NCBI GenBank assembly: GCA_017646625.1
Contig: JAGCMF010000008.1
Coordinates: 62,001-126,000 of the forward strand
Direction: 5' to 3'
Length of the DNA: 64,000 nucleotides
Source of the DNA: Alistipes sp.
Lineage (GTDB): Bacteria > Bacteroidota > Bacteroidia > Bacteroidales > Rikenellaceae
Positions 41,927-53,490 of this stretch are shown here, piece by piece. The position numbers and the translations under genes were made by a program. Within the stretch, counting starts at the first letter, position 1, and each line of letters begins with the position of its first letter. The notes beneath the pieces are model-generated. The model searched no databases and was not told where the DNA came from. It saw only the letters and a program-made list of their open reading frames with translations.

Positions 41927-43015
41927 CTACTGCAACTCACTCTCCTTCAGGCGTTCAGCATTCTCGGCAACGATGAGCTGGTCGATGACATCCTGAATGT
42001 CGCCATCCATGAAGGCTGAAAGGTTGTAGATGGTGTAGTTGATACGGTGGTCGGTGATACGTCCCTGGGGGTAGTTGTAGGTACGAATCTTCGCTGAACG
42101 GTCACCCGTAGATACCATCGTCTTACGCTTCGAGGCTATCTCGTCGAGGTACTTCGAGTACTCGAGGTTGAAGACACGCGTACGCAACTCCTCGAATGCC
42201 TTGTCGAAGTTCTTGAGCTGCGACTTCTGGTCCTGACACTGCACGACGATGCCTGTGGGGATGTGGGTAAGACGTATTGCCGAGTAGGTGGTGTTCACCG
42301 ACTGGCCACCAGGACCCGATGCACAGAAGATATCCTTACGTATGTCGTTCATAGATATCTCGATGTCGAACTCCTCGGCCTCGGGGAGCACAGCAACAGA
42401 GGCTGCAGAGGTGTGTACACGACCCTGTGTCTCGGTCTGTGGCACACGCTGCACACGGTGTACGCCCGACTCATACTTCAAGGTGCCATATACACTCTGG
42501 CCTGTAACCTTGAGCACTACCTCCTTATAGCCACCCGCAGCACCATCAGATGCCGATGTTATCTCGTAGCGCCAGCCCTTCGACTCGATGTACTTGGTGT
42601 ACATGCGCAATAGGTCACCCGCGAAGATGGCAGCCTCGTCGCCACCCGTACCACCACGAATCTCAACGATAGCATTCTTGTCGTCCTGTGGATCCTTGGG
42701 GATGAGAAGAAGCTTTATCTCCTCCTCCATCTTCTCTATTGCGGGCTCGAGGGTAGCAATCTCCTCGCGTGCAATCTCGCGGAACTCCTCATCTTTCTCG
42801 TTTGCAAAGATATCTTTAGCCTCGGCGAGGTTAGCGATAGCTGTGCGGAAGCGGTCTGATGTCTCGATGATGGGCTCAAGCTCCTTGTACTCCTTTGTAA
42901 GCTGCACAAACTGCTTAACATCGGCAATTACCTCGGGGTCAGTGAGTTTCTGACCTATCTCCTCGTACTTTAGCTTCAAGCCGTCGAGACGCATCAATAT
43001 TGAATTATCTGCCAT
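41927..43015 (-). CDS. prfA: Peptide chain release factor 1
   Basis: 362 aa. GGQ motif within GPGGQSVNTTYSAIRLTH (about 230-247). It terminates translation at UAA and UAG. A -7 box lies about 50 bp upstream. No PrmC gene is adjacent. Note that RF1 reads UAG, the codon interrupting the kinase-like gene at 5941. Confidence 0.96.
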   Translation of the reverse strand: MADNSILMRLDGLKLKYEEIGQKLTDPEVIADVKQFVQLTKEYKELEPIIETSDRFRTAIANLAEAKDIFANEKDEEFREIAREEIATLEPAIEKMEEEIKLLLIPKDPQDDKNAIVEIRGGTGGDEAAIFAGDLLRMYTKYIESKGWRYEITSASDGAAGGYKEVVLKVTGQSVYGTLKYESGVHRVQRVPQTETQGRVHTSAASVAVLPEAEEFDIEISMNDIRKDIFCASGPGGQSVNTTYSAIRLTHIPTGIVVQCQDQKSQLKNFDKAFEELRTRVFNLEYSKYLDEIASKRKTMVSTGDRSAKIRTYNYPQGRITDHRINYTIYNLSAFMDGDIQDVIDQLIVAENAERLKESELQ

Positions 43016-43064
43016 ATATTTAGATTATTTTACGTCTTCTCCTATGGTTATTTATATTTCCGCG

Positions 43065-43072
43065 CAAATATA
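43065..43072 (-). promoter_or_regulatory. -7 promoter box of prfA (TATATTTG on minus strand)
   Basis: The plus strand reads CAAATATA, 49 bp before the prfA start. It matches TAnnTTTG. Confidence 0.55.
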
Positions 43073-43171
43073 ACGAAAATTTCTCAAAAAAATAATAGGT
43101 CTCAACACCTTGATAATTAAATAATTTAATGCGCGCCGAAAAAATAGTGTAAAAAAATTTAACAAAAAGAC

Positions 43172-43202
43172 TTGACAACGGCATTTTCATGTAGTATATT
43201 TG
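43172..43202 (+). promoter_or_regulatory. Promoter reading toward the phage-derived cassette
   Basis: TTGAC (43172-43176), an 18-bp spacer and TATATTTG (43195-43202). It combines a sigma70-like upstream box with the Bacteroidota -7 box. About 240 bp separate it from the first cassette gene. Confidence 0.55.
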
Positions 43203-43448
43203 CATCGTAAAACGGAACTTAATAGTTGTGCTATGTTTGCCAGATATCAACACTACTATGCTCTGTTATTAGAGTTATAAACATTTGTAATATATTCATA
43301 ATAAGTATTCTATTTATATATATTGACATTAAGTAACACGATATAAACAGTGTTATCAACATCTGCCGTAGTTCCCGATTGCAGAGTGGGGCGAGGGTGG
43401 GTGACTGGGGATGCTATCGCCAATTTTTAAACTTAAAATATTTAACAT

Positions 43449-44405
43449 ATGAAATTTACGTCTATACCAGAAAATGGCCTTTCGTGGCACGGCAAGCTGC
43501 TCTACGCCTTCGACACCGAGGGTGAGGCGAGGGATGTGGTGGTGGTCATACGCGACGCCATACAAGAGAGTCTGATAGGCTCCATGCGCCTATATGGTGT
43601 GGTGTGTGCCGAGGTCGACATCGCCCCCTACCTGCGTAGCTATATGTCGCAGTGGCAGCTGCCCACGGAGAGTGGCTTGAGTCCCTCGAGGGCTGCATGT
43701 CGTGTGGTGGTGGAGGTGGAGGGTGTAGCCTCCGCAGCACGAACACTCTTCTACGGCGAGATAGACCCGCTGCAGGGCGTGGCGTTGAGTGGCGTTGCCG
43801 AGACAAGGGTGGTGCGTAGGGGCGATGTTGTGCGCCTGACGCTATATAGCCCGCGCAAGTTGTCGGTACACGTGACAGATGCAAAACTCGGGGGTGTGGT
43901 GGGGCACTTCGAGGTGGTGACATCCTCCATGCCCTATGAGTTCACCTTCAGCCTTGAGAATATACCTGTGGGTGTCGGTATGTTGGAGGTGGAGGTGCGT
44001 GGCGATGGGCAGGAGATAGCACGTCTGCGCTATAGCATTATGCGCTTCGGCTCTACGGCACGTCAGGTGGCGTGGCGCAATAGGCGTGGTGGCGTGGAGT
44101 GCTACACCTTCCCTGTGTGTCGCACAACGGAGTGCTCTGCAGAGGTGGTGGGTAGCGATGAACCACGCCTCAAGGGTGCCGTCATGCACCGCAGGCTCAT
44201 CTCGGGGCAGGAGCCGAGCAGGGAGATGGCGCGCATAGCGGAGGTGATATGTGCCCCAGCGATATATGAGTGTCGGGGCCTTGAGGTGGTGCCCATGAGG
44301 CTGCTGACACGCCGCCTAATATATGGCGAGGGTGGCATGTTGAAGAGCCTTGAGTTGGATGTGGAGCAGGAGTGGAGAGGAGGTGACTATGAGGCTGCTT
44401 ATTGA
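43449..44405 (+). CDS. Phage-cassette protein 1, unknown structural protein
   Basis: 318 aa, no signal peptide, no membrane segment; predicted mostly beta. The stretch VAWRNRRGGVECYTFPV is reminiscent of a WxNxxGGxxxYxF pattern I associate with structural proteins of Bacteroidota phages, but I cannot name the family. It is first in a run of eight co-oriented genes including capsid and portal. The coding strand is G-rich like the rest of the cassette and the frame is intact. Confidence 0.6.
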   Translation: MKFTSIPENGLSWHGKLLYAFDTEGEARDVVVVIRDAIQESLIGSMRLYGVVCAEVDIAPYLRSYMSQWQLPTESGLSPSRAACRVVVEVEGVASAARTLFYGEIDPLQGVALSGVAETRVVRRGDVVRLTLYSPRKLSVHVTDAKLGGVVGHFEVVTSSMPYEFTFSLENIPVGVGMLEVEVRGDGQEIARLRYSIMRFGSTARQVAWRNRRGGVECYTFPVCRTTECSAEVVGSDEPRLKGAVMHRRLISGQEPSREMARIAEVICAPAIYECRGLEVVPMRLLTRRLIYGEGGMLKSLELDVEQEWRGGDYEAAY

Positions 44406-46713
44406 TGGTTGTGAGTGCCCACTTGTGGGCGATAGGGGCACCATCCCGGGTCGTGACCTGCGATGCATGGAGAGTGTTGAGGCGTGGAGAGAGGGTAGGA
44501 GCTTGGAGCTGTGGGTGGAGCTAACACCCGCCATGGAGACTCTCTTTGCGCATGCCGAGGAGCTACACCGCACCGAGACCTTCAACGATGCCTACCACCA
44601 TGGCGAGGTGATGGTGGATGGCGTGGTGCTCTTCAGCGGTGTTGTGGCGCTACATGGTGTGGAGGTGGTAGAGGGCAAGAGGGCATACCACATCGTGGTG
44701 CGTGAGGGTGGTGCCGAGTGGGCAGATAGCCTCGCCACGACAAACCTTAATGCTACACCTGTAGAGTGCGTGAGGGAGATGACGCTGCACGACATCGAGG
44801 AGTCGTGGAGTGACGATGGCATAATAAGGATGCTGCCGATAGTGCGTGATAACTACCCGCAGCTTACACCCACGGGCATATATACGCCACAGCGTATGCT
44901 CACACCCTCCGACTGCCACCCCTTCATCACCGTGGTTGAGCTCCTGCGCACCATGGTCGAGACGGCAGGATACACCATAAAGAGTGAGTTTCTGGCAACA
45001 CCCCTCGCCTCGCGCCTTGTGATGAGTGGTGCCTATGCCCAGGTGGATAGCGAGCAGGCGATGGCGACGATGGGCTTCAAGGCGCTGCGTGCCACGACAA
45101 CGACGGCAACAGCGGCATATGACGGTAGAGTGGAGTTGAGCATGCCACAGCATAGCTCGAGTGTGGGTGCTGTGGTAGACACCATAAGCCCGCAGGTCAT
45201 AGATGGTGTGGTGCAGATGGCCGATGCCTACACCAATGGTGGCTCCCTATCCTTCGTTGCGGGTAACCTTCTCTTCACCCCTACACGCGAGGTGCGCACA
45301 GCCTTCGACATACACCTAAACTACACCACCGACTACCGCATAGTCTCCTCCCGCCGCCTCCAGGGCTTCGACCGCATATACCTCGGCATGGGGTGTTACG
45401 TAGACGTCGTGCTGCACAACCGCAACCGCGATATGCGCAACGAGGTGATACCAGGCAGACTATACACGCTGATGATCTTCGACTACGACCCCGAGGCGGT
45501 ATATAGCATCAGGGGTGGAAACACCGTAACGGCGGCTGTAACGAAGTTTACATCAACGAGTGGCATGGAGAGTAAGATGGTTATTCTGGTCAAGGCCAAG
45601 GGCGATAGCATCTTCAGGACATACAGAGGCGACTGGGCACTCTACGAAGGTCATGTGGAGAGTGAGGGACGCTGCACGGTAGATGTCGTGGTGCGCACAC
45701 CCTATGAGTTGCTCACGCCAGGCTCACCAAAGAGGTTCGACGACATCTACATTGAGGGTGCTGCCGAGGGTCAGAGCCTGACACTTAATGCCGGCTGTAG
45801 CATAACACCACACTTCGGTGGCGTGGCGGGCTATGGCGAGAGGATAACCTTCGAGGATGTCACGCACCACGGCATAGTACAGGCCGATGTGGTGAATGCC
45901 GTAGCCCATATGTTCAACCTACGCCTCTACTCGCATAGGCCATCACGAAGCCTATACATAGAGCCCTACGACGACTTCTACAACGGCGCAGTGGTAGATT
46001 GGTGCGATAGGCAGCGTGGCGAGGGTGTGCTGCATGAGAGTGTTGTAGAGAGCTTCATGCTCACACGCCTCGGCTACCAGGCGGCAGATGGCGTGGCACG
46101 ACGACTAATGGCGCCCGACAGTGATGCCGAGCCTGGGGCGTGGGAGTTTGTGGTGCATAGCTACGCCACGAAGCAGAGTGTGGAGAGTAGGCTGAACCCC
46201 CTCTTTGTGCCCACAGCAGCGTGTGGCGACCACCTCCCCACAGCACCCTCGGCCGAGATGCCTGTGGTGGGCAACCGCGACGAGATAACGGCAACAGAGT
46301 ATGTGGCACCTCGCATACTCATCTACCACGGCCTTAAGGCGTTGCCCGCAGGCGAGGTGTGGCCCATACCTGGCGATGGCAGCAGCTACCCCTATGCAGC
46401 CTTCCATAGCCCCGAGGAGGGTGTCACGCTATGCTTCGATGGCGACGACGGCTGCCAGGGACTGCGCCACTACCACGAGGGTGAGCTGCGTGCAAGGGCC
46501 GTAGGTCAGGTGCTGACGACAGATGTATGCCTGCGCCCAGAGGAGTATGTTGCGCTGTTCGACCCCATGGCCGAGGGTGCCTCCATCAGGTCGCGCTTCA
46601 GGCTCCGCTATGGCGCCAACACCTCACTCTTCCACCTCGAGGAGGTGGTGTGCTACGACCCTGCGACATACACCGCCACGTGCCGCTTCCGCCGTGAGCT
46701 TACAGACAACTAA
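44389..46713 (+). CDS. Phage-cassette protein 2, large unknown structural protein
   Basis: 774 aa from the ATG at 44389, preceded by AGGAGGTG, a rare clear Shine-Dalgarno site here; it overlaps the previous gene by 17 bp. The frame is open 13 codons further up but that start lacks an SD. Mostly beta with no signal peptide or membrane helix. Segments such as EVMVDGVVLFSGVV and the repeated Tyr/Asp-rich parts suggest a tail, baseplate or fibre protein, but no motif proves it. Confidence 0.6.
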   Translation: MRLLIDGCECPLVGDRGTIPGRDLRCMESVEAWREGRSLELWVELTPAMETLFAHAEELHRTETFNDAYHHGEVMVDGVVLFSGVVALHGVEVVEGKRAYHIVVREGGAEWADSLATTNLNATPVECVREMTLHDIEESWSDDGIIRMLPIVRDNYPQLTPTGIYTPQRMLTPSDCHPFITVVELLRTMVETAGYTIKSEFLATPLASRLVMSGAYAQVDSEQAMATMGFKALRATTTTATAAYDGRVELSMPQHSSSVGAVVDTISPQVIDGVVQMADAYTNGGSLSFVAGNLLFTPTREVRTAFDIHLNYTTDYRIVSSRRLQGFDRIYLGMGCYVDVVLHNRNRDMRNEVIPGRLYTLMIFDYDPEAVYSIRGGNTVTAAVTKFTSTSGMESKMVILVKAKGDSIFRTYRGDWALYEGHVESEGRCTVDVVVRTPYELLTPGSPKRFDDIYIEGAAEGQSLTLNAGCSITPHFGGVAGYGERITFEDVTHHGIVQADVVNAVAHMFNLRLYSHRPSRSLYIEPYDDFYNGAVVDWCDRQRGEGVLHESVVESFMLTRLGYQAADGVARRLMAPDSDAEPGAWEFVVHSYATKQSVESRLNPLFVPTAACGDHLPTAPSAEMPVVGNRDEITATEYVAPRILIYHGLKALPAGEVWPIPGDGSSYPYAAFHSPEEGVTLCFDGDDGCQGLRHYHEGELRARAVGQVLTTDVCLRPEEYVALFDPMAEGASIRSRFRLRYGANTSLFHLEEVVCYDPATYTATCRFRRELTDN

Positions 46714-46733
46714 ACAACCAAAACCCTATTATT

Positions 46734-47609
46734 ATGAACACAACTATTAAGATTAAGAATGAGGCTGATAGCACGACTATCGACATCGAGGGCATCATCG
46801 GCATTGCCGAGGAGTGGCAGTTCGAGAACCCCGAGAGCCGTGTTGCCACCTACGAGAGATTCAAGGAGAGTGTATCGCGCATTGCCGACATCCGTGGTAG
46901 CGAGATACGTGTAAACATACGTTCCACGGGTGGCGATGTCAACGATGCACTGCTAATATATGAGGCGTTGCGTGCCACGGGAGCTGTGGTGACAACATGC
47001 TGCTACGGATATACCGCCTCGGCAGCCACCATCGTGGCACAGGCAGCCTCGCCAGGACGCCGTCTCATAGCACCCTCGGCACTATACCTCATCCATAACT
47101 CGCTATGCTCGGCAGAGGGTAATGCCGAGGAGCTGGAGGCAGAGGTGGCCATGCTCCGCCAGACAGATGCACGCCTTGCGGAGATATACGCCACACGTTC
47201 GGGACGTAGCGTGGAGGAGGTGGCATCGTTGATGGCCGAGAATGGTGGTCGTGGCCGCTGGCTATCCCCCGCCGAGGCCATCGCTGAAGGCCTTGTTGAT
47301 AGCCTCGATGAGCAGACGCTGGTGCAGCGTGCCGTGGGTGGTGTCAAGGCGTTGCTGCGCACCATAGGCCTCGGCGAGGGTGCTCGCCCCGAGGCAGAGG
47401 ATGTGAACTACACGATGCGCCGAGCACCGCAGCCATGTCCTACGCCCGAGGCTGCCGCAAAGAGCTCCTTAATAGCCTTCGAGGAGGCACAGCGTAGCGT
47501 GAAGCCCACGGAGGTGAAGGCTGTGGAGGACCCCGCGATGGTGGAGATGGCGAGCAACCCCCGCCAGGCGGCATACGAGAGTGATGCTCGTAACATGCGC
47601 ATGCGATAG
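46734..47609 (+). CDS. ClpP-type head maturation protease of phage origin
   Basis: 291 aa. ClpP/S14 fold in residues about 15-195: oxyanion stretch RSTGGDVNDAL (63-73), nucleophile S96 in GYTASAATI, and H121 in LIHNS. The C-terminal 95 residues are low in structure and Ala/Glu-rich, possibly a scaffold. Phage proteases of this type cleave scaffold and capsid delta domains. It sits directly before the capsid gene, the usual place. Confidence 0.85.
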   Translation: MNTTIKIKNEADSTTIDIEGIIGIAEEWQFENPESRVATYERFKESVSRIADIRGSEIRVNIRSTGGDVNDALLIYEALRATGAVVTTCCYGYTASAATIVAQAASPGRRLIAPSALYLIHNSLCSAEGNAEELEAEVAMLRQTDARLAEIYATRSGRSVEEVASLMAENGGRGRWLSPAEAIAEGLVDSLDEQTLVQRAVGGVKALLRTIGLGEGARPEAEDVNYTMRRAPQPCPTPEAAAKSSLIAFEEAQRSVKPTEVKAVEDPAMVEMASNPRQAAYESDARNMRMR

Positions 47610-47685
47610 TCATGCACGACAGATGACCAACGACGGCCGTAGTGGCCAAAATGTATAACATATTAACATCTAAAACTTTACAACA

Positions 47686-48666
47686 ATGAGACTTATTGAA
47701 AATCCAAAGACCTACAAGGGTCGTGAACTCGAGACTATCTTCTTTCGCCCAATGTTCGTGGGCCCCAATGCCGAGCAGCTTGGCATCCGCATGATGTATA
47801 ATATGCCTGTGCCGACGACGGTGCAGGTGTGGAGCCCACGTCACGATGTGTTGCGTGCCTACACCTCGGGCTGGGAGGGTGGTAAGTCGGCACAGCGACT
47901 GCAGAAGCAGATCGAACTTACGAAGGTGAAGGCAGAGGTGGGATTCTCGGCATCGGACTACTTCCAGCAGGTATATGAGCTTATCGTGGGTAGCGCCGAT
48001 GTGAACCTCGACGACCTCACAGGCACAGAGCTCGAGAAGGCAGAGACGGAGCTCTTCCGTGCCGCCATCGCCGAGAGCCTACGTGTGATGATGTGGATGG
48101 GTGACACCTCGTCAGATAGCTTCAACGAGTTCGACGGCCTGCTTGTGCGCCTATACCAGTATACGCAGGATGGTGAAGAGATTCCCGCCTTCAACTGCCA
48201 AAATATACCTGTCACGCCCGACAACATCCTCGACATCCTCGGTGGCATGTGGAAGGCAGCATCGCCCGAGCTCAAGGCGTTGAAGAGTGAGGGTAATCTC
48301 GCCTTCTTCGTGACAACGGATATATACGATGCCTATGAGCAGTATCTCGACCAGTGTGGTGCCGATGGCGCATATACCGACCTCATGTCGGGACGTCGTG
48401 AGCTCTCGTACCACGGCATAAAGCTCATCGACATGGGCATCTCGCAGTATATGCCTCTGCACTACAACCGCCGTTCTACGCACTGCATACTCACCGACCG
48501 CCGTAACCTCATCCTTGCGGTGAACACTGCCGACTACCCAGGCTCCGAGGTGCGTATGTGGTATAACCCCGACGAGATGGAGAACCGTCAGCGTGCAACA
48601 TTCATGGTGGGCACCGAGATTCTCGATGAGACGTTGCTCGTATACGGACAGTTTAACCAGGCTTAA
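47686..48666 (+). CDS. Major capsid protein (HK97-like, phage-derived)
   Basis: 326 aa. An N-terminal arm is followed by a core with the DYFQQVYELIVGSADV stretch, a P-domain-like helix region and the strand HYNRRSTHCILTDRRNLILAVN near the C-terminus. Length, the adjacent protease upstream and the portal downstream support an HK97-fold capsid protein. The frame is intact. I rely on both sequence style and position; no profile search was possible. Confidence 0.75.
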   Translation: MRLIENPKTYKGRELETIFFRPMFVGPNAEQLGIRMMYNMPVPTTVQVWSPRHDVLRAYTSGWEGGKSAQRLQKQIELTKVKAEVGFSASDYFQQVYELIVGSADVNLDDLTGTELEKAETELFRAAIAESLRVMMWMGDTSSDSFNEFDGLLVRLYQYTQDGEEIPAFNCQNIPVTPDNILDILGGMWKAASPELKALKSEGNLAFFVTTDIYDAYEQYLDQCGADGAYTDLMSGRRELSYHGIKLIDMGISQYMPLHYNRRSTHCILTDRRNLILAVNTADYPGSEVRMWYNPDEMENRQRATFMVGTEILDETLLVYGQFNQA

Positions 48667-48676
48667 GTGTAGGAGT

Positions 48677-49906
48677 ATGAGTGATAAGAGGATTGCAACA
48701 CGCATTGTTGCCCCCGAGAACCGTACCGAGCCCCTCGTGGGCTCTGGTGCGGCAGGAGGTACTACGGCGGTGGATAAGGTGTGGCGCTGGGGCGGGGATA
48801 ACATGCTGCCCATGGCCCTATCGCTTCTTGCCCGCCGTTCGGTGGCCCACAGACGCATAATAAACGACAAGGCAGACTACATTGCTGGCAAGGGGTTCAC
48901 GTGTGCCGACTCGGAGCCTCTGTTGCGCTACATGGTGGATAATGCCAATGGCAGTGGTGAGACGCTGCGTGCCGTCATAGCACGCATAGCGCGTGACGAG
49001 GCACTCTTCGGCAACGCCTTCATGGAGGTGGTGACAGATGCCTCACACTCCTTCCTCGCCCTCTACCACATAGATGCCTCGCAGTGTCGTGTGGCGCACG
49101 ACTCGCAGCATGTGGTGCTGCACCACGACTGGTCGTCGTTCCGCATGACGCAGGCACGTGTGCTGCCACTATACCCACGCTTTGAGAGGTGTGACGATGG
49201 CACGCTGCGTAGCGTGGTGCACTACAAGGAGTATGAGCCTATGTTCTCGCACTATGGCGTAGCACCATATGTCGCAGGCATGGATGCCGCAGCCATAGTC
49301 TATAAGACCGACAGGTGGAACATATCACGCATAGACAACGCCTTTCAGCTCTCGGGTGTGATGATGCTCGATGGCGCTGTAGATACCGAGGAGGAGGCAG
49401 ACCGCATAGTGCGTCTTGCCGAGGAGAAGTTCGCCGGTAACCCGGGTCAGGTGCTCTTCGTGCTCCGCGACCACCACGATGGCGATAACTCGCGCTTCAT
49501 ACCCATAGACTCCACGTCGGAGGGCGACTGGTCGCAGCTACATACACAGGCCGAGTCGGACCTTGTGGTGGCACACTCGTGGTTCAGGTCGTTGAGTGGC
49601 CTCGACTATGCCGCGGGATTCTCCACAGATAGGATACTGCAGGAGTATGAGGTGGCGCTGAATACCGTCATCCTACCGCGCCAGGAGCAGATTATGGAGC
49701 CTCTGCGCAGCATCATCAGCGACATCCTGGCCATCGATGCCTCGTCGCTGGAGATTGTAAACCGCCCACCTACGCGTTCCAAGCCACTGTATATGCGTGT
49801 TTGGGAGGCACGCAAGGCAGATGGTCTCGACTACGACGCCACAGACCCCGAGCAGTGTAGGTTCCTTGCCGAGATTACAAAGTATAACATTAAGTCGATA
49901 GATTAG
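48677..49906 (+). CDS. Phage portal protein
   Basis: 409 aa from the ATG at 48677, 10 bp after the capsid stop and preceded by AGGAG. The open frame extends 28 codons upstream into the capsid gene, which is unlikely. Portal features: an N-terminal WGGDNMLPMALSLLARRS, the stem-like WNISRIDNAFQLSG, and a long C-terminal helix around VALNTVILPRQEQIMEPLRSII. Portals form the dodecameric DNA gate of the head. Confidence 0.8.
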   Translation: MSDKRIATRIVAPENRTEPLVGSGAAGGTTAVDKVWRWGGDNMLPMALSLLARRSVAHRRIINDKADYIAGKGFTCADSEPLLRYMVDNANGSGETLRAVIARIARDEALFGNAFMEVVTDASHSFLALYHIDASQCRVAHDSQHVVLHHDWSSFRMTQARVLPLYPRFERCDDGTLRSVVHYKEYEPMFSHYGVAPYVAGMDAAAIVYKTDRWNISRIDNAFQLSGVMMLDGAVDTEEEADRIVRLAEEKFAGNPGQVLFVLRDHHDGDNSRFIPIDSTSEGDWSQLHTQAESDLVVAHSWFRSLSGLDYAAGFSTDRILQEYEVALNTVILPRQEQIMEPLRSIISDILAIDASSLEIVNRPPTRSKPLYMRVWEARKADGLDYDATDPEQCRFLAEITKYNIKSID

Positions 49907-49907
49907 T

Positions 49908-50360
49908 ATGAGTACACTTATAAATGTTGAGGATGTCATGCGCCTCGCCTTCACCGCCGAGGAGGGCTGCCGAGGTCATGTCGTCAGTGAGTTGGATATA
50001 TATGTTGCCGAGTGCCGATACCTCGTGCCCGTCATCGGCAGGGCGCTGTACAACAAGTTGCTCGAGGGTGAGTATGGGGAGCTTATGGAGGGGTATGTGG
50101 CACCCGCGCTGGCAGCATGGGTGCGCTACATCGTCGAGCCCTTCCTCGCGGCACGATGCTGGGATGGGCATCTGCCCGCCACGGGGGCCTCGCTGGTGGA
50201 GATTGAGAGGGTTGTCATGCAGTGCCGCAAGCGCATCGCCGAGGCGCTGACACGTCGTCTTGTGCGCCACCTTGACGAGGTGGAGTATGTGGAGTATAAC
50301 ATTGAGGATAGTTCATTAAATCGTTGTAGCATAGATGGTGGCATTGTTCAAATACGTTAG
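49908..50360 (+). CDS. Phage head-tail connector-like protein
   Basis: 150 aa, mostly helical. Its place after the portal, its size and the helical pattern (RYLVPVIGRALYNKLLEGEY, WVRYIVEPFLAA) fit a small head-completion or connector protein, of the kind annotated DUF6712 in Bacteroidota phages. The family name is tentative. It is 1 bp after the portal stop and overlaps the holin start by 26 bp. Confidence 0.6.
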   Translation: MSTLINVEDVMRLAFTAEEGCRGHVVSELDIYVAECRYLVPVIGRALYNKLLEGEYGELMEGYVAPALAAWVRYIVEPFLAARCWDGHLPATGASLVEIERVVMQCRKRIAEALTRRLVRHLDEVEYVEYNIEDSSLNRCSIDGGIVQIR

Positions 50361-50760
50361 TGGATGTATGGCGGCACTCGTTGCCATGCTCTGCCCCGTC
50401 TCACCCCTTGTCACCGCCGCGCTGCTCTTCATCGCCATAGACTTTGTCACGGGCATCGCCGCCTCGCGTGCTGTGGCACGACGTGAGGGTAGCGAGTGGC
50501 GCATAGAGAGTCGCAAGGCGTGGCGCACGGTATTCAAGGCGGGCTTCGTGGCCCTCGCAATAGTCATGATGTGGGTCATAGACTCGGCAATACTCGACTT
50601 CATGCACCTCAACCTTGCAAAGCTCTTCACAGGCTTTGTGTGTGGTGTGGAGCTATGGTCGTTCCTGGAGAATGCCGCAGCCATAAGTGGCTCGCCACTC
50701 TTCGAGTTGATGGGGCGCTGGGTTAAGCGACGCATGGGAGAGGAGGTGATGGATGAGTAG
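50335..50760 (+). CDS. Phage holin
   Basis: 141 aa. Two to three membrane helices (about 8-25, 27-46, 70-88), an arginine-rich cytoplasmic loop between them, and a charged C-terminus, as in phage_holin_4 proteins. It overlaps both neighbours (26 bp before, 8 bp after), a sign of tight translational coupling with the lysis gene. Holins form membrane lesions that release the endolysin. Confidence 0.8.
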   Translation: MVALFKYVSGCMAALVAMLCPVSPLVTAALLFIAIDFVTGIAASRAVARREGSEWRIESRKAWRTVFKAGFVALAIVMMWVIDSAILDFMHLNLAKLFTGFVCGVELWSFLENAAAISGSPLFELMGRWVKRRMGEEVMDE

Positions 50761-51166
50761 AGGATTGCGTAATAACAACCCTGGCAACATACGCCGTTCG
50801 AAGGTGCGCTACGAGGGTGAGGTGCCCTCGGCAGATGTCTCGTTCAAGGCCTTCGAGAGCATGGCATATGGCTATCGTGCCATCTTCGTGCTGCTCGACA
50901 GCTATAGGCGTAAGTATGGGCTCTGCACCATACGCCAGATGCTCAATCGCTATGCTCCACCCTCGGAGAACTTCACGGAGGGGTATGTGCGATATGTGGT
51001 GGCGCAGACAGGCATAGCCCCCGATGAGAGCCTCGACACCCTCTCGCCTCACGATATGGTGCCCTTCGTGGCGGCGATATCGAAGATTGAGAATGGCGTG
51101 GCGGCAAGGATGGCAGATGTGTGGGCTGGCTGGGGCCTCTTCGAGGAGTCGGTGGAGGATAGATAG
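50753..51166 (+). CDS. P5-like phage lysozyme / peptidoglycan hydrolase
   Basis: 137 aa. The N-terminal NNNPGNIR (7-14) and the FKAFESMAYGYRAIFVLLDSYRRKYGL stretch are typical of the structural protein P5-like lytic transglycosylase family. Holin plus this protein form a lysis pair. It is the last gene of the cassette; 218 bp of non-coding DNA with an inverted repeat GGGGAGCT/AGCTCCCC (51177-51184 and 51231-51238) follows. Confidence 0.8.
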   Translation: MSRGLRNNNPGNIRRSKVRYEGEVPSADVSFKAFESMAYGYRAIFVLLDSYRRKYGLCTIRQMLNRYAPPSENFTEGYVRYVVAQTGIAPDESLDTLSPHDMVPFVAAISKIENGVAARMADVWAGWGLFEESVEDR

Positions 51167-51295
51167 TGTCGTGTGTGGGGAGCTGTGGGGGTGTCGTTGC
51201 GTGGCGTGTGTGTCACCTTGTGATGCCCCGAGCTCCCCAAATTGATGATATGTGGCCCTCACCCCGCCATGAAGCCATCTTTTTTAGCCGATAAA

Positions 51296-51327
51296 TTTGT
51301 GATGTAGAGTAAAAATTCCTATTTTTG
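51296..51327 (+). promoter_or_regulatory. Promoter of the SDR gene (TTTG-N20-TATTTTTG)
   Basis: The best match in the window to the Bacteroidota promoter: TTTG at 51296-51299, 20-bp spacer, TATTTTTG at 51320-51327. It is 57 bp before the start. Confidence 0.8.
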
Positions 51328-51384
51328 CAAGTTGTAGAGCTGTGCTCTATGGTGTAGGAGATAGAAACTAAAAAATATATCAAA

Positions 51385-52128
51385 ATGAAACGAATAGTTG
51401 TTACAGGTGCGACATCGGGCATTGGCCGAGCTACAGCACTACGCCTCGCGGGCAAGGATACGCAGATTATCATCACAGGTCGTCGTAAGGATCGTCTCGA
51501 GGCCCTCAAGAGTGAGGTCGAGGCGCGTGGCGCAGAGTGTGTGGCGCTGAACTTCGACGTCAGAAGCGAGGCGGAGTGTATCGAGTACCTCGAGCCTCTG
51601 GGTCGTGTAGATGTCCTTATCAACAATGCGGGTCTTGCCGCTGGCCTCGAGCATATCGACAAGGGCGACTCGCGCGATTGGGATGCTATGATTGACACCA
51701 ATGTCAAGGGTCTGCTCTATGTCACCAAGATTATCAGCCGCGCGATGGTTGAGGCGGGCAAGGGTGGCCACATCATCAACATAGGCTCTATCGCCGGTAC
51801 CGAGCCATATGAGAATGGTGCCGTATACTGCGCCTCGAAGCATGCCGTGCATGCCATCTCGCAGGCTATGCGTGCCGACCTGTTGAGTGCCGGGATCAAG
51901 GTTGGTGAGGTGCGCCCAGGCATGGTGGAGACAGAGTTCTCGGAGGTGCGCTTCCATGGCGACAAGCAGCGTGCCGAGGGTGTATACCGCGGCGTGGAGG
52001 CACTCCAGGGTGAGGATATCGCCGAGGCTATACACTGGATGTTGTCGCTGCCACCACACATGAACGTCAACGACATTGTGCTTATGCCTACATGTCAGGC
52101 GGGTGCATACTACACATATCGTAAGTAA
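51385..52128 (+). CDS. Short-chain dehydrogenase/reductase (YdfG-like)
   Basis: 247 aa, classical SDR. Cofactor motif G8-G14 (TGATSGIG), NNAG (80-83), catalytic S135, Y148 and K152. R33-R34 in TGRRKDR suggests NADP preference. Closest in style to 3-hydroxy acid / serine dehydrogenases of the YdfG type. Substrate unproven. It has its own strong promoter and is followed by the sialidase gene after about 15 bp. Confidence 0.9.
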   Translation: MKRIVVTGATSGIGRATALRLAGKDTQIIITGRRKDRLEALKSEVEARGAECVALNFDVRSEAECIEYLEPLGRVDVLINNAGLAAGLEHIDKGDSRDWDAMIDTNVKGLLYVTKIISRAMVEAGKGGHIINIGSIAGTEPYENGAVYCASKHAVHAISQAMRADLLSAGIKVGEVRPGMVETEFSEVRFHGDKQRAEGVYRGVEALQGEDIAEAIHWMLSLPPHMNVNDIVLMPTCQAGAYYTYRK

Positions 52129-52143
52129 CAAAACTAAAGAGTG

Positions 52144-53490
52144 ATGATGATGAATAGAGCATTTAGAGTGATGTTGACCATGGCCTCGGCTGTGGCACTC
52201 ATGGTGGCGTGTGGCAACGACGATGTCACAGAGGATGTACCAAAGCCCCAGCCCGAGCCTACGGCACCTGCAGCACCACGCTACGAGGTGTTCCCACTCC
52301 TCAACCCCACAGATATACCATACCGCATACCTGCCTTGGCATGCACAGAGTCGGGTACGCTTATCGCCGTTGCCGACTACCGTCATAGCGGCACCGACAT
52401 CGGCGTGACAAACAACGGCCGTATAGACTTACGCTACAGCTTGAGCTACGACAATGGTAACACATGGACCGAGGTGATGCCCCTTATCGAGGGTAAGGGT
52501 GCTGACTCGCCAGACTTCATGCACGTAGGCTTCGGCGACCCATGCATCGTGGCAGATAGAGAGTCCAGCAGGGTACTCATGATGAGCTGCGCGGGTAACG
52601 TCTCGTTCCAGAATGGCACACGCACAAACCACCAGAACATAGCGCGCTTCTACAGCGAGGATGGTGGTAAGACGTGGGGTGCGCCCGAGGATATCGCCGA
52701 GAGTATATACTCGCAGTTCGACGCCTCGAAGTATGGTCCTGTGCGTTCTATGTTCATCGCCTCGGGTCGCGTAATGCAGAGCCGCACGGTGAAGGTGGGC
52801 GCCTACTACCGCCTCTACTGCGCAATCCTTGCTCGCGACAAGAGTGGCACAAACATGAACTATGTGCTCTTCTCTGACGACTTCGGTGGCAGCTGGAGGG
52901 TGCTCGGCAGCATAGACACCCCAGCGGTGTATAGGACTGCCGATGAGCCCAAGGTCGAGGAGCTGCCAAACGGCACACTGCTCATCAGCTCGCGCTACAA
53001 CGAGGGTCGCTACTTCAACATCTTCACCTTCAGCGACGTGGCTACAGGCCAGGGTAGCTGGGAGGCTGCCGCCTTCTCGGGTGCTGCGAACAATGGTGTC
53101 GAGGCCAAGGCGAACTCTACAAATGGCGAGGTCATGGTCATCAGCGTGGAACGTGTTGCCGACGGTGAGAAGATGCACCTTCTGCTTCAGTCGTTGCCCC
53201 TGGGTCCCGAACGTAAGAGTGTGGGCATCTACTACAAGGAGCTCGCCACGGAGGATGACTACTTCCTGCCATCGTTCCTCGCCGCAGAGTGGGATGGCGT
53301 GAAGCAGGTGACAACCATCAACTCGGCATACTCGACAATGGCATGGCAGGCCGACAATCGCCTCGGCTTCCTCTACGAGGAGGAGTCGCACGGCAAGAGT
53401 GATCTGGCATACGGTGGCTACACCATCGTTTACGAGTGCTTCGACATCGAGGATATCACCGATGGCAAGTATCGCTATAGCAAAGAGTAA
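52144..53490 (+). CDS. Lipoprotein exo-sialidase (GH33-like)
   Basis: 448 aa. Start taken as the first ATG after a GTG in the run GTG-ATG-ATG-ATG; 52150 is equally possible. Lipobox MVAC with Cys23, then a Pro-rich linker. The sialidase signature YRIP (60-63, with R61 as the carboxylate-binding arginine) and Asp boxes SYDNGNTW, SEDGGKTW and a variant SDDFGGSW are visible. The enzyme removes terminal sialic acids from host glycans at the cell surface. No sialic-acid lyase or transporter gene is adjacent. Confidence 0.88.
   Translation: MMMNRAFRVMLTMASAVALMVACGNDDVTEDVPKPQPEPTAPAAPRYEVFPLLNPTDIPYRIPALACTESGTLIAVADYRHSGTDIGVTNNGRIDLRYSLSYDNGNTWTEVMPLIEGKGADSPDFMHVGFGDPCIVADRESSRVLMMSCAGNVSFQNGTRTNHQNIARFYSEDGGKTWGAPEDIAESIYSQFDASKYGPVRSMFIASGRVMQSRTVKVGAYYRLYCAILARDKSGTNMNYVLFSDDFGGSWRVLGSIDTPAVYRTADEPKVEELPNGTLLISSRYNEGRYFNIFTFSDVATGQGSWEAAAFSGAANNGVEAKANSTNGEVMVISVERVADGEKMHLLLQSLPLGPERKSVGIYYKELATEDDYFLPSFLAAEWDGVKQVTTINSAYSTMAWQADNRLGFLYEEESHGKSDLAYGGYTIVYECFDIEDITDGKYRYSKE

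Follow-up and report, generated by a model that had tools for sequence, protein, structure and literature searches.

Why would a bacterial genome keep genes for a phage head, a portal and host lysis side by side, all in open frames, with no terminase next to them to fill the particle? The question is posed by a stretch of 64,000 nucleotides (hereafter the window) from Alistipes, a common gut genus of the family Rikenellaceae; the genome, G000, is a draft of 1.87 Mb in 37 contigs. At positions 43449-51166 lie the eight co-oriented, open-framed genes that an original prediction had described, encoding two large proteins (g1 and g2), a ClpP-type protease, a capsid, a portal, a neck/connector-like protein, a holin and a lysozyme. 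That prediction read the cassette as a domesticated particle, be it a gene transfer agent (GTA), a protein compartment, or a satellite using a helper's terminase. Domestication is strongly supported by what we observe, namely a genus-wide and family-wide, nearly always single-copy presence under selection, and of the three options a GTA fits best. We consider the cassette to be, probably, the particle-and-lysis module of an ancient, split GTA. Our best reading of its history is that a phage was domesticated early, ahead of the radiation of much of the family, with mainly vertical inheritance since then.

The terminase module and its link to the cassette

The claim that there is no terminase is true of the window and false of the genome. 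When the large terminase (TerL) of a related prophage in another Alistipes genome, G006, is used as a query, it matches 96 of 101 Alistipes genomes. In the window's own genome the TerL (59%, open frame) lies at C35:24284-25642, and the prophage query thereby rules out that the genome lacks a terminase. The profile phrog_2 was tried as a universal terminase marker, with matches in 95 of 101 genomes, and was rejected: its sole match in G000 is PhoH (PF02562, E 7.7e-92), and it missed the real TerL. PF03354 has no match in G000.

We read the TerL locus itself in 18 genomes, picked for having it on long contigs. In all 18, a small gene, c1, is followed by TerL, with a divergent repressor alongside. 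TerL retains its Walker A, Walker B and nuclease motifs throughout. The repressor combines an HTH domain with Peptidase_S24, as in CI/LexA-type proteins, and its Ala-Gly cleavage site, Ser and Lys are likewise kept in 18/18; the names given to these motor, nuclease, cleavage and Ser/Lys motifs follow general usage. The c1 product is ~95-105 aa long, has no domain match and evolves fast; a simple tblastn search detects it in 16 of the 18. A Pfam scan of the 10 genes flanking TerL in G000 gave no integrase, the genes being host-type or without a match. Thus a terminase does exist elsewhere, as the original prediction proposed to check, but in the loci read it sits at a conserved place and not in a plain prophage. 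Relatives of this TerL occur in ordinary prophages and in Bacteroides phages. In a midpoint-rooted tree, the TerLs of the system (26 rows, 24 from Alistipes and two from a sister genus) group as a single clade (100/98) that excludes 12 other TerLs; these 12 are labeled prophage, had their surroundings read in three cases, and include a long branch, G068_C34.

The cassette and the TerL module are one system. By query matches, both occur in 92 of 101 genomes, and no genome lacks both. On shared contigs 110,620 and 274,290 bp separate them, and in six other genomes the distance is at least 148 kb. A few genomes of other genera of the family show them closer together. In G313, repressor, c1 and TerL lie ~4 kb upstream of, and on the same strand as, a cassette beginning c13-g1-g2 (c13 being a gene present at part of the loci), with other genes between; in G213, of the same genus as G313, the modules are on two contigs. 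In two more genera (L273 and L277), TerL adjoins protease, capsid, portal and neck, with neither g1 nor g2, and at L282 TerL lies within ~10 kb of protease, capsid, portal and neck. Among 20 further cassettes, 19 of them from other genera, three are linked to TerL and one is cut by a contig end. At L282 (G419:C2:341000-360999, a sister genus), we also see by eye that capsid, portal, neck and protease are spaced by recurring non-coding or repeat-like stretches.

Joint control of cassette and TerL by a common promoter element is only suggested. A promoter-like element, TTGACAA-N16-TATATTTGCA, lies upstream of the cassette at 43172..43204 on the + strand, is conserved in a 15-locus alignment of the window's clade, window included, and recurs upstream of TerL at C35:23819-23851. 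The exact pattern, which was picked after inspection of both promoters, has three sites in the genome. The third precedes an AAA_25 ATPase gene (L256:9747-10874, equal to G000:C20:53746-54873) that is patchy (44/101 genomes, several with two or more copies) and probably mobile. We do not claim a shared regulon, given this third site and the post hoc pattern. The spacer between TerL and the repressor holds a strongly conserved block of its own in 18/18 loci.

Distribution, selection and descent

Sporadic presence among relatives, which the original prediction had counted against domestication, is not what we find. The portal was detected in 97 of 101 Alistipes genomes, nearly always in one copy, and in all 38 of good quality, the four misses being drafts 71-84% complete. 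The query used in this survey carried 28 extra residues before the true start, which probably explains most of the stops in some of its matches. A capsid profile matched 131 of 150 genomes of the family, 95 of the 99 good-quality ones and 17 of 22 genera, again nearly always as a single copy. At the level of the order, a single-sequence capsid query matched 6/295 genomes, three of them the family's own.

Of 154 confirmed loci 80 were retained, and among these the ones long enough to show gene order nearly always have the same one: [c13]-g1-g2-[c16]-protease-capsid-[c9]-portal-neck-holin-lysozyme. The bracketed genes are not in all loci, and holin or lysozyme went undetected in some. By profile, c9 is present in 41 of 101 genomes and c13 in 37, all of which are among the 41; from their positions, without profile support, these two may be a tail tube and a tail terminator. 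The flanks differ between clades. Having prfA as a neighbor, which the original prediction proposed to look for in other genomes, marks the clade to which the window belongs (L031-L046, where the loci extend far enough), with other flanks elsewhere. In some Alistipes clades (L058 and L100), ComEC-like (DNA uptake) and methyltransferase genes were noticed by eye near the cassette, downstream of the lysozyme; a ComEC neighbor would be of interest for receiving GTA DNA.

Selection was gauged at 87 distinct Alistipes loci, using 38 pairs with no shared loci, of which 28-38 served for each gene. Median dN/dS runs well below 1 for every gene: 0.338 for g1, the fastest of the eight, 0.241 for g2, 0.161 for the protease, 0.187 for the capsid, 0.140 for the portal, 0.247 for the neck, 0.130 for the holin and 0.160 for the lysozyme, all rough values given that dS is often near 1, with single pairs reaching 0.76. 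The corresponding figures for two host genes are 0.018 for prfA (8 pairs) and 0.044 for the short-chain dehydrogenase (SDR) gene (4 pairs), so both evolve more slowly than the cassette. In the 18 genomes with a read TerL locus, restricted to pairs with dS <1.5, we obtained 0.176 for TerL, 0.107 for the repressor, 0.373 for c1 and 0.215 for the portal, against 0.16 for the housekeeping gene PhoH. Across the 87 loci, g1 was detected at 75, g2 at 80, the holin at 77 and the lysozyme at 78. Six of the eight genes show no short reading frame at any of the 75-87 loci where they occur, the portal shows 1/87, and g2 4/80, of which three begin at the end of a contig. The suggestion that intact frames reflect selection is therefore borne out, with medians of 0.13-0.34 and mostly intact frames.

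The two modules also appear to share their descent with the host. Pairwise distances for portal, capsid, TerL, repressor and PhoH are all correlated (ten Mantel r of 0.516-0.813, with 0/5000 permutations as high), a comparison for which a single host gene, PhoH, is a thin yardstick. The system is inherited mainly vertically across the clade, as host genes are, under purifying selection, with the exceptions in distribution given below.

The genes of the cassette and their phage relatives

All eight genes lie on the + strand. The starts of two of them had to be moved relative to the original prediction, the second gene to 44389 and the portal to 48677. The protein labels mostly held: protease, portal, holin and lysozyme are recognized by profile, the capsid is weak by profile, and the connector has no profile match. 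In detail, the first gene, g1 (43449..44405, 318 aa), has no Pfam or PHROG match and occupies the same position as a 307-aa gene in the related prophage, a position that suggests a distal tail or adhesin part. The product of g2 (44389..46713, 774 aa) resembles an 884-aa prophage protein whose gene precedes the tape measure, and its position suggests a hub or baseplate part; none of its 26 members has a PHROG match (0/26), and profile searches against the PDB gave none of use. Both were described from the outset as large proteins of no known kind, and Pfam and PHROG profile searches gave no usable match for either, nor for the neck protein. The ClpP/S14-type head maturation protease (46734..47609, 291 aa) matches phrog_94 at 2.5e-34 and PF00574 (CLP_protease) at 2.4e-28. 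The major capsid protein (47686..48666, 326 aa) has weak PHROG matches, the best being phrog_1623 at E 0.0024, and its identification is held up by its position and by similarity to the prophage and phage capsids of L139 and L117. Searches of solved structures gave nothing usable for g2, the capsid or c9. The portal (48677..49906, 409 aa) matches phrog_11226 at 2.8e-17, with PF04860 (Phage_portal) just above the cut-off. The 150-aa protein that follows (49908..50360) is placed as neck/connector-like by position, the neck gene standing directly after the portal in the related prophage and in relatives. The holin (50335..50760, 141 aa) matches PF05105 (Phage_holin_4_1) at 8e-13 and phrog_199 at 8.1e-9, and the lysozyme-like endolysin (50753..51166, 137 aa) matches phrog_873 at 1.6e-41.

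In the window, HMMs of the related phage parts match only the eight genes, leaving no further member of that set. The four genes on either side of the cassette are host-type or without a Pfam match (release factor, VTC, short-chain dehydrogenase, BNR-repeat, RecG and others), and a Pfam scan found no integrase among these eight. We found no direct repeats of at least 16 bp in 42600-52200 and no tRNA in the window, so that the reported lack of integrase, att repeats and tRNA target is upheld. The composition is not quite like that of the host, as had been claimed, since the cassette has a GC content of 0.578 against 0.526 in the remaining window, ~5 points higher.

The related phage is seen in G006, an Alistipes genome in which the cassette coexists with an intact-looking prophage related to it (L139/L140, G006:C31:24000-63999). 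The order in this prophage is a small terminase (TerS), TerL, a 138-aa gene (at the c13 position), the 307-aa gene (at that of g1), the 884-aa g2-like gene, a tape measure, an 82-aa gene (at that of c16), protease, capsid, a 171-aa relative of c9, portal, neck and a holin-looking gene. Here TerS, TerL and tape measure are assigned by PHROG profile, g2, protease, capsid, portal and neck by sequence, c9 by profile at E 2e-6, and c13, g1 and c16 by position only, the c13 profile having no match there. Prophage and cassette system are thus alike in TerL and g2 by sequence and in three further places by position, and they differ in that the prophage has a TerS and a tape measure, the latter sporadic in the genus. 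The phage contig L117, which differs from the cassette in having an integrase, shares with it and with the G006 prophage the order protease, capsid, one or two small proteins, portal and neck, and the portals of L117 and the prophage share 48-51% identity with that of the window. The order protease-capsid-portal, which the original prediction had called the reverse of the usual one, is thus native to this phage family and no sign of domestication. Other relatives are the Bacteroides phages B40-8 and B124-14 (FJ008913, HE608841), whose TerLs are ~46-48% identical over 93-95% of the query; they differ in being free phages, in which the window's capsid and portal have no match at E 1e-5.

Cassette pieces also turn up in virus collections. 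The IMG/VR contigs L111-L116, listed as viral, hold such pieces, with portals 62-68% identical, and are probably bacterial fragments. Two fecal GenBank entries named "Bacteriophage sp." (MT838736 and MT838805) hold pieces as well; they may be bacterial fragments and are not counted as packaging evidence.

A probable split gene transfer agent, its rivals and known systems

Several of the features that mark a GTA are found here: head, portal and terminase genes of phage origin in intact frames, and no genes for integration or self-replication with the cluster, as judged from Pfam scans of the 8 and 10 flanking genes in G000 and from HMMs of phage parts across the window. A GTA fits best because shell, portal, motor, regulator and lysis genes are kept together yet split in place, and because neither an integrase beside the modules nor a phage tape measure accompanies them. 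From gene content, a cycle of induction, packaging of host DNA, release and transfer can be envisaged. The repressor would keep the terminase operon silent until stress leads to repressor self-cleavage and frees the operon. The cassette would supply protease-matured capsids with a portal, through which TerL, working without a recognizable sequence-specific small terminase, would load fragments of host DNA, and holin and lysozyme would lyse some of the cells to free the particles. We put at about even the chances of a more specific picture, that of a Bacteroidota GTA lineage, domesticated in an ancestor shared by most of the family, in which the motor came to occupy a separate locus controlled by a self-cleaving CI/LexA-type repressor, and in which c9 and c13 (which may be the tail tube and tail terminator) were lost in much of Alistipes, the window's clade included, leaving a short-tailed or tailless GTA with motor and shell controlled apart.

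Several observations weigh against a GTA. The candidate is known from genes alone. In three human donors, Rikenellaceae ranked with the most abundant families of the total DNA, and the bacterial DNA of the particle fraction was dominated by other families (PMC12946183); the differences reportedly stay below a threshold, and Alistipes is not named in the main text. Nor were all the parts expected of a tailed, packaging particle found. No TerS was found between c1 and TerL in Alistipes (three frames, 16 loci, by eye); at L273 and L277, genes of 88 and 131 aa precede TerL, weakly alike (20 bits in a three-sequence search), with one weak PHROG match at E 0.019. A tape-measure query taken from the prophage matches 4/61 genomes, the prophage's own included and G000 not, and c9 and c13, which the window's clade lacks, have no match anywhere in the window's own genome. 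As for the link between modules, the stretch examined holds g1 and g2 but not TerL in 16 of the 20 further cassettes. The repressor's likely operator at TerL has no counterpart before most cassettes: the conserved block downstream of the TerL promoter has no match of comparable score upstream of cassettes, and a TTCAA-N-TTGAA palindrome of that promoter, exact in 7/18 TerL regions, is so in 1/18 regions upstream of cassettes. Nor is the distribution perfect. The capsid was missed in four good-quality genomes (G437 and G494, both Alistipes, and G403 and G414), and five genera of the family sample lack it. The Alistipes genome G099 (L085/L188, G099:C11) shows that the cassette can erode: four of its genes are detected there (portal, capsid, g1 and neck) and four are not (g2, protease, holin and lysozyme), and the TerL locus is intact.

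The missing parts would suit a domesticated particle that does not move DNA, such as an encapsulin-like compartment, a killing or lysis device, or a phage-blocking decoy supplying portal, capsid and neck: the tape-measure query run over 61 genomes did not reveal one for the system, c9 and c13 are absent from ~60% of the genus sample, and TerS was not found in Alistipes. We nevertheless judge such a particle unlikely: besides the cassette, genomes retain a TerL whose motor and nuclease motifs are all in place, few of the genes are as constrained as the portal, and holin and lysozyme are detected at 77/87 and 78/87 distinct Alistipes loci. A compartment needs no TerL, portal or lysis genes, and their retention therefore speaks against it; an encapsulin would be a single HK97 shell with cargo and without portal or terminase, and here portal and TerL are conserved with the capsid.

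It is more doubtful still that the loci are the remains of one or several related prophages, persisting by chance or through repeated re-infection of the genus. This account can draw on the intact-looking prophage in G006, on the TerL relatives in ordinary prophages and Bacteroides phages, and on the eroded cassette in G099. It is hard to reconcile with near-universal, nearly always single-copy presence in genus and family, mostly intact frames with dN/dS far below 1, gene distances that follow a host gene, and a clade of system TerLs apart from the others. A temperate prophage would have a complete set of integrase, replication and tape-measure genes with attachment sites; the cassette has no flanking repeats, and the genes scanned beside it and TerL hold none of that set, integrase included. 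The lack of an integrase there bears equally on the least probable of the explanations, a satellite or capsid-forming island that borrows its tail or other components from a helper phage. A head and packaging set lacking a tail may resemble the gene content of capsid-forming islands, and the L273/L277 locus contains barely more than terminase, protease, capsid, portal and neck. However, a mobile island would bring an integrase, which is not among the flanking genes scanned, and sporadic presence, which we do not find; the cassette has no flanking repeats, and the genes show near-universal inheritance while split over two sites. Satellite and protein compartment, two of the forms first proposed, thus fit poorly with a conserved TerL with intact motifs in the same genomes.

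If the GTA reading is true, these Bacteroidota would have, across the family, an inbuilt means of gene exchange without a mobile element, and the natural split between motor and shell would offer a place to study GTA control. Standard scans can miss such systems, as phrog_2 matched PhoH and not TerL, and as virus collections list cassette fragments as viruses. In the open-licence literature, to the extent available, we found no report of a GTA in Bacteroidota.

Few GTAs have been studied so far. RcGTA of Rhodobacter capsulatus and its relatives are encoded by a cluster of phage origin that is inherited vertically throughout a clade; it includes TerL, portal, protease and capsid genes and is not known to carry an integrase. 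The Alistipes system resembles RcGTA in these respects and in the small gene just upstream of TerL, and differs in its unlinked TerL, the TerS that was not found, the missing tape measure and, in the window's clade, the missing c9 and c13. In RcGTA the TerL gene lies inside the core structural cluster, and a small terminase without a DNA-binding domain has been described just upstream of TerL in a GTA (PMC6854486). A nearer parallel in layout is FpGTA of Faecalibacterium, which its authors call the first GTA found in the human gut microbiome, and for which they report two operons (separated in one strain by ~125 kb, with lysis genes in the second), a possible TerS without an obvious DNA-binding domain, and backing from microscopy, proteome and DNA evidence (PMC12946183). 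The two systems are alike in belonging to gut anaerobes and in their phage-derived head and packaging genes, two-site layout and lysis genes, and they differ in phylum and in the podovirus-like parts of FpGTA. FpGTA is known also from particles and the Alistipes system from genes alone; the detached part is a tail/lysis set in FpGTA, and in Alistipes it is the motor, set beside a CI/LexA-type repressor in a system that spans most of a bacterial family.

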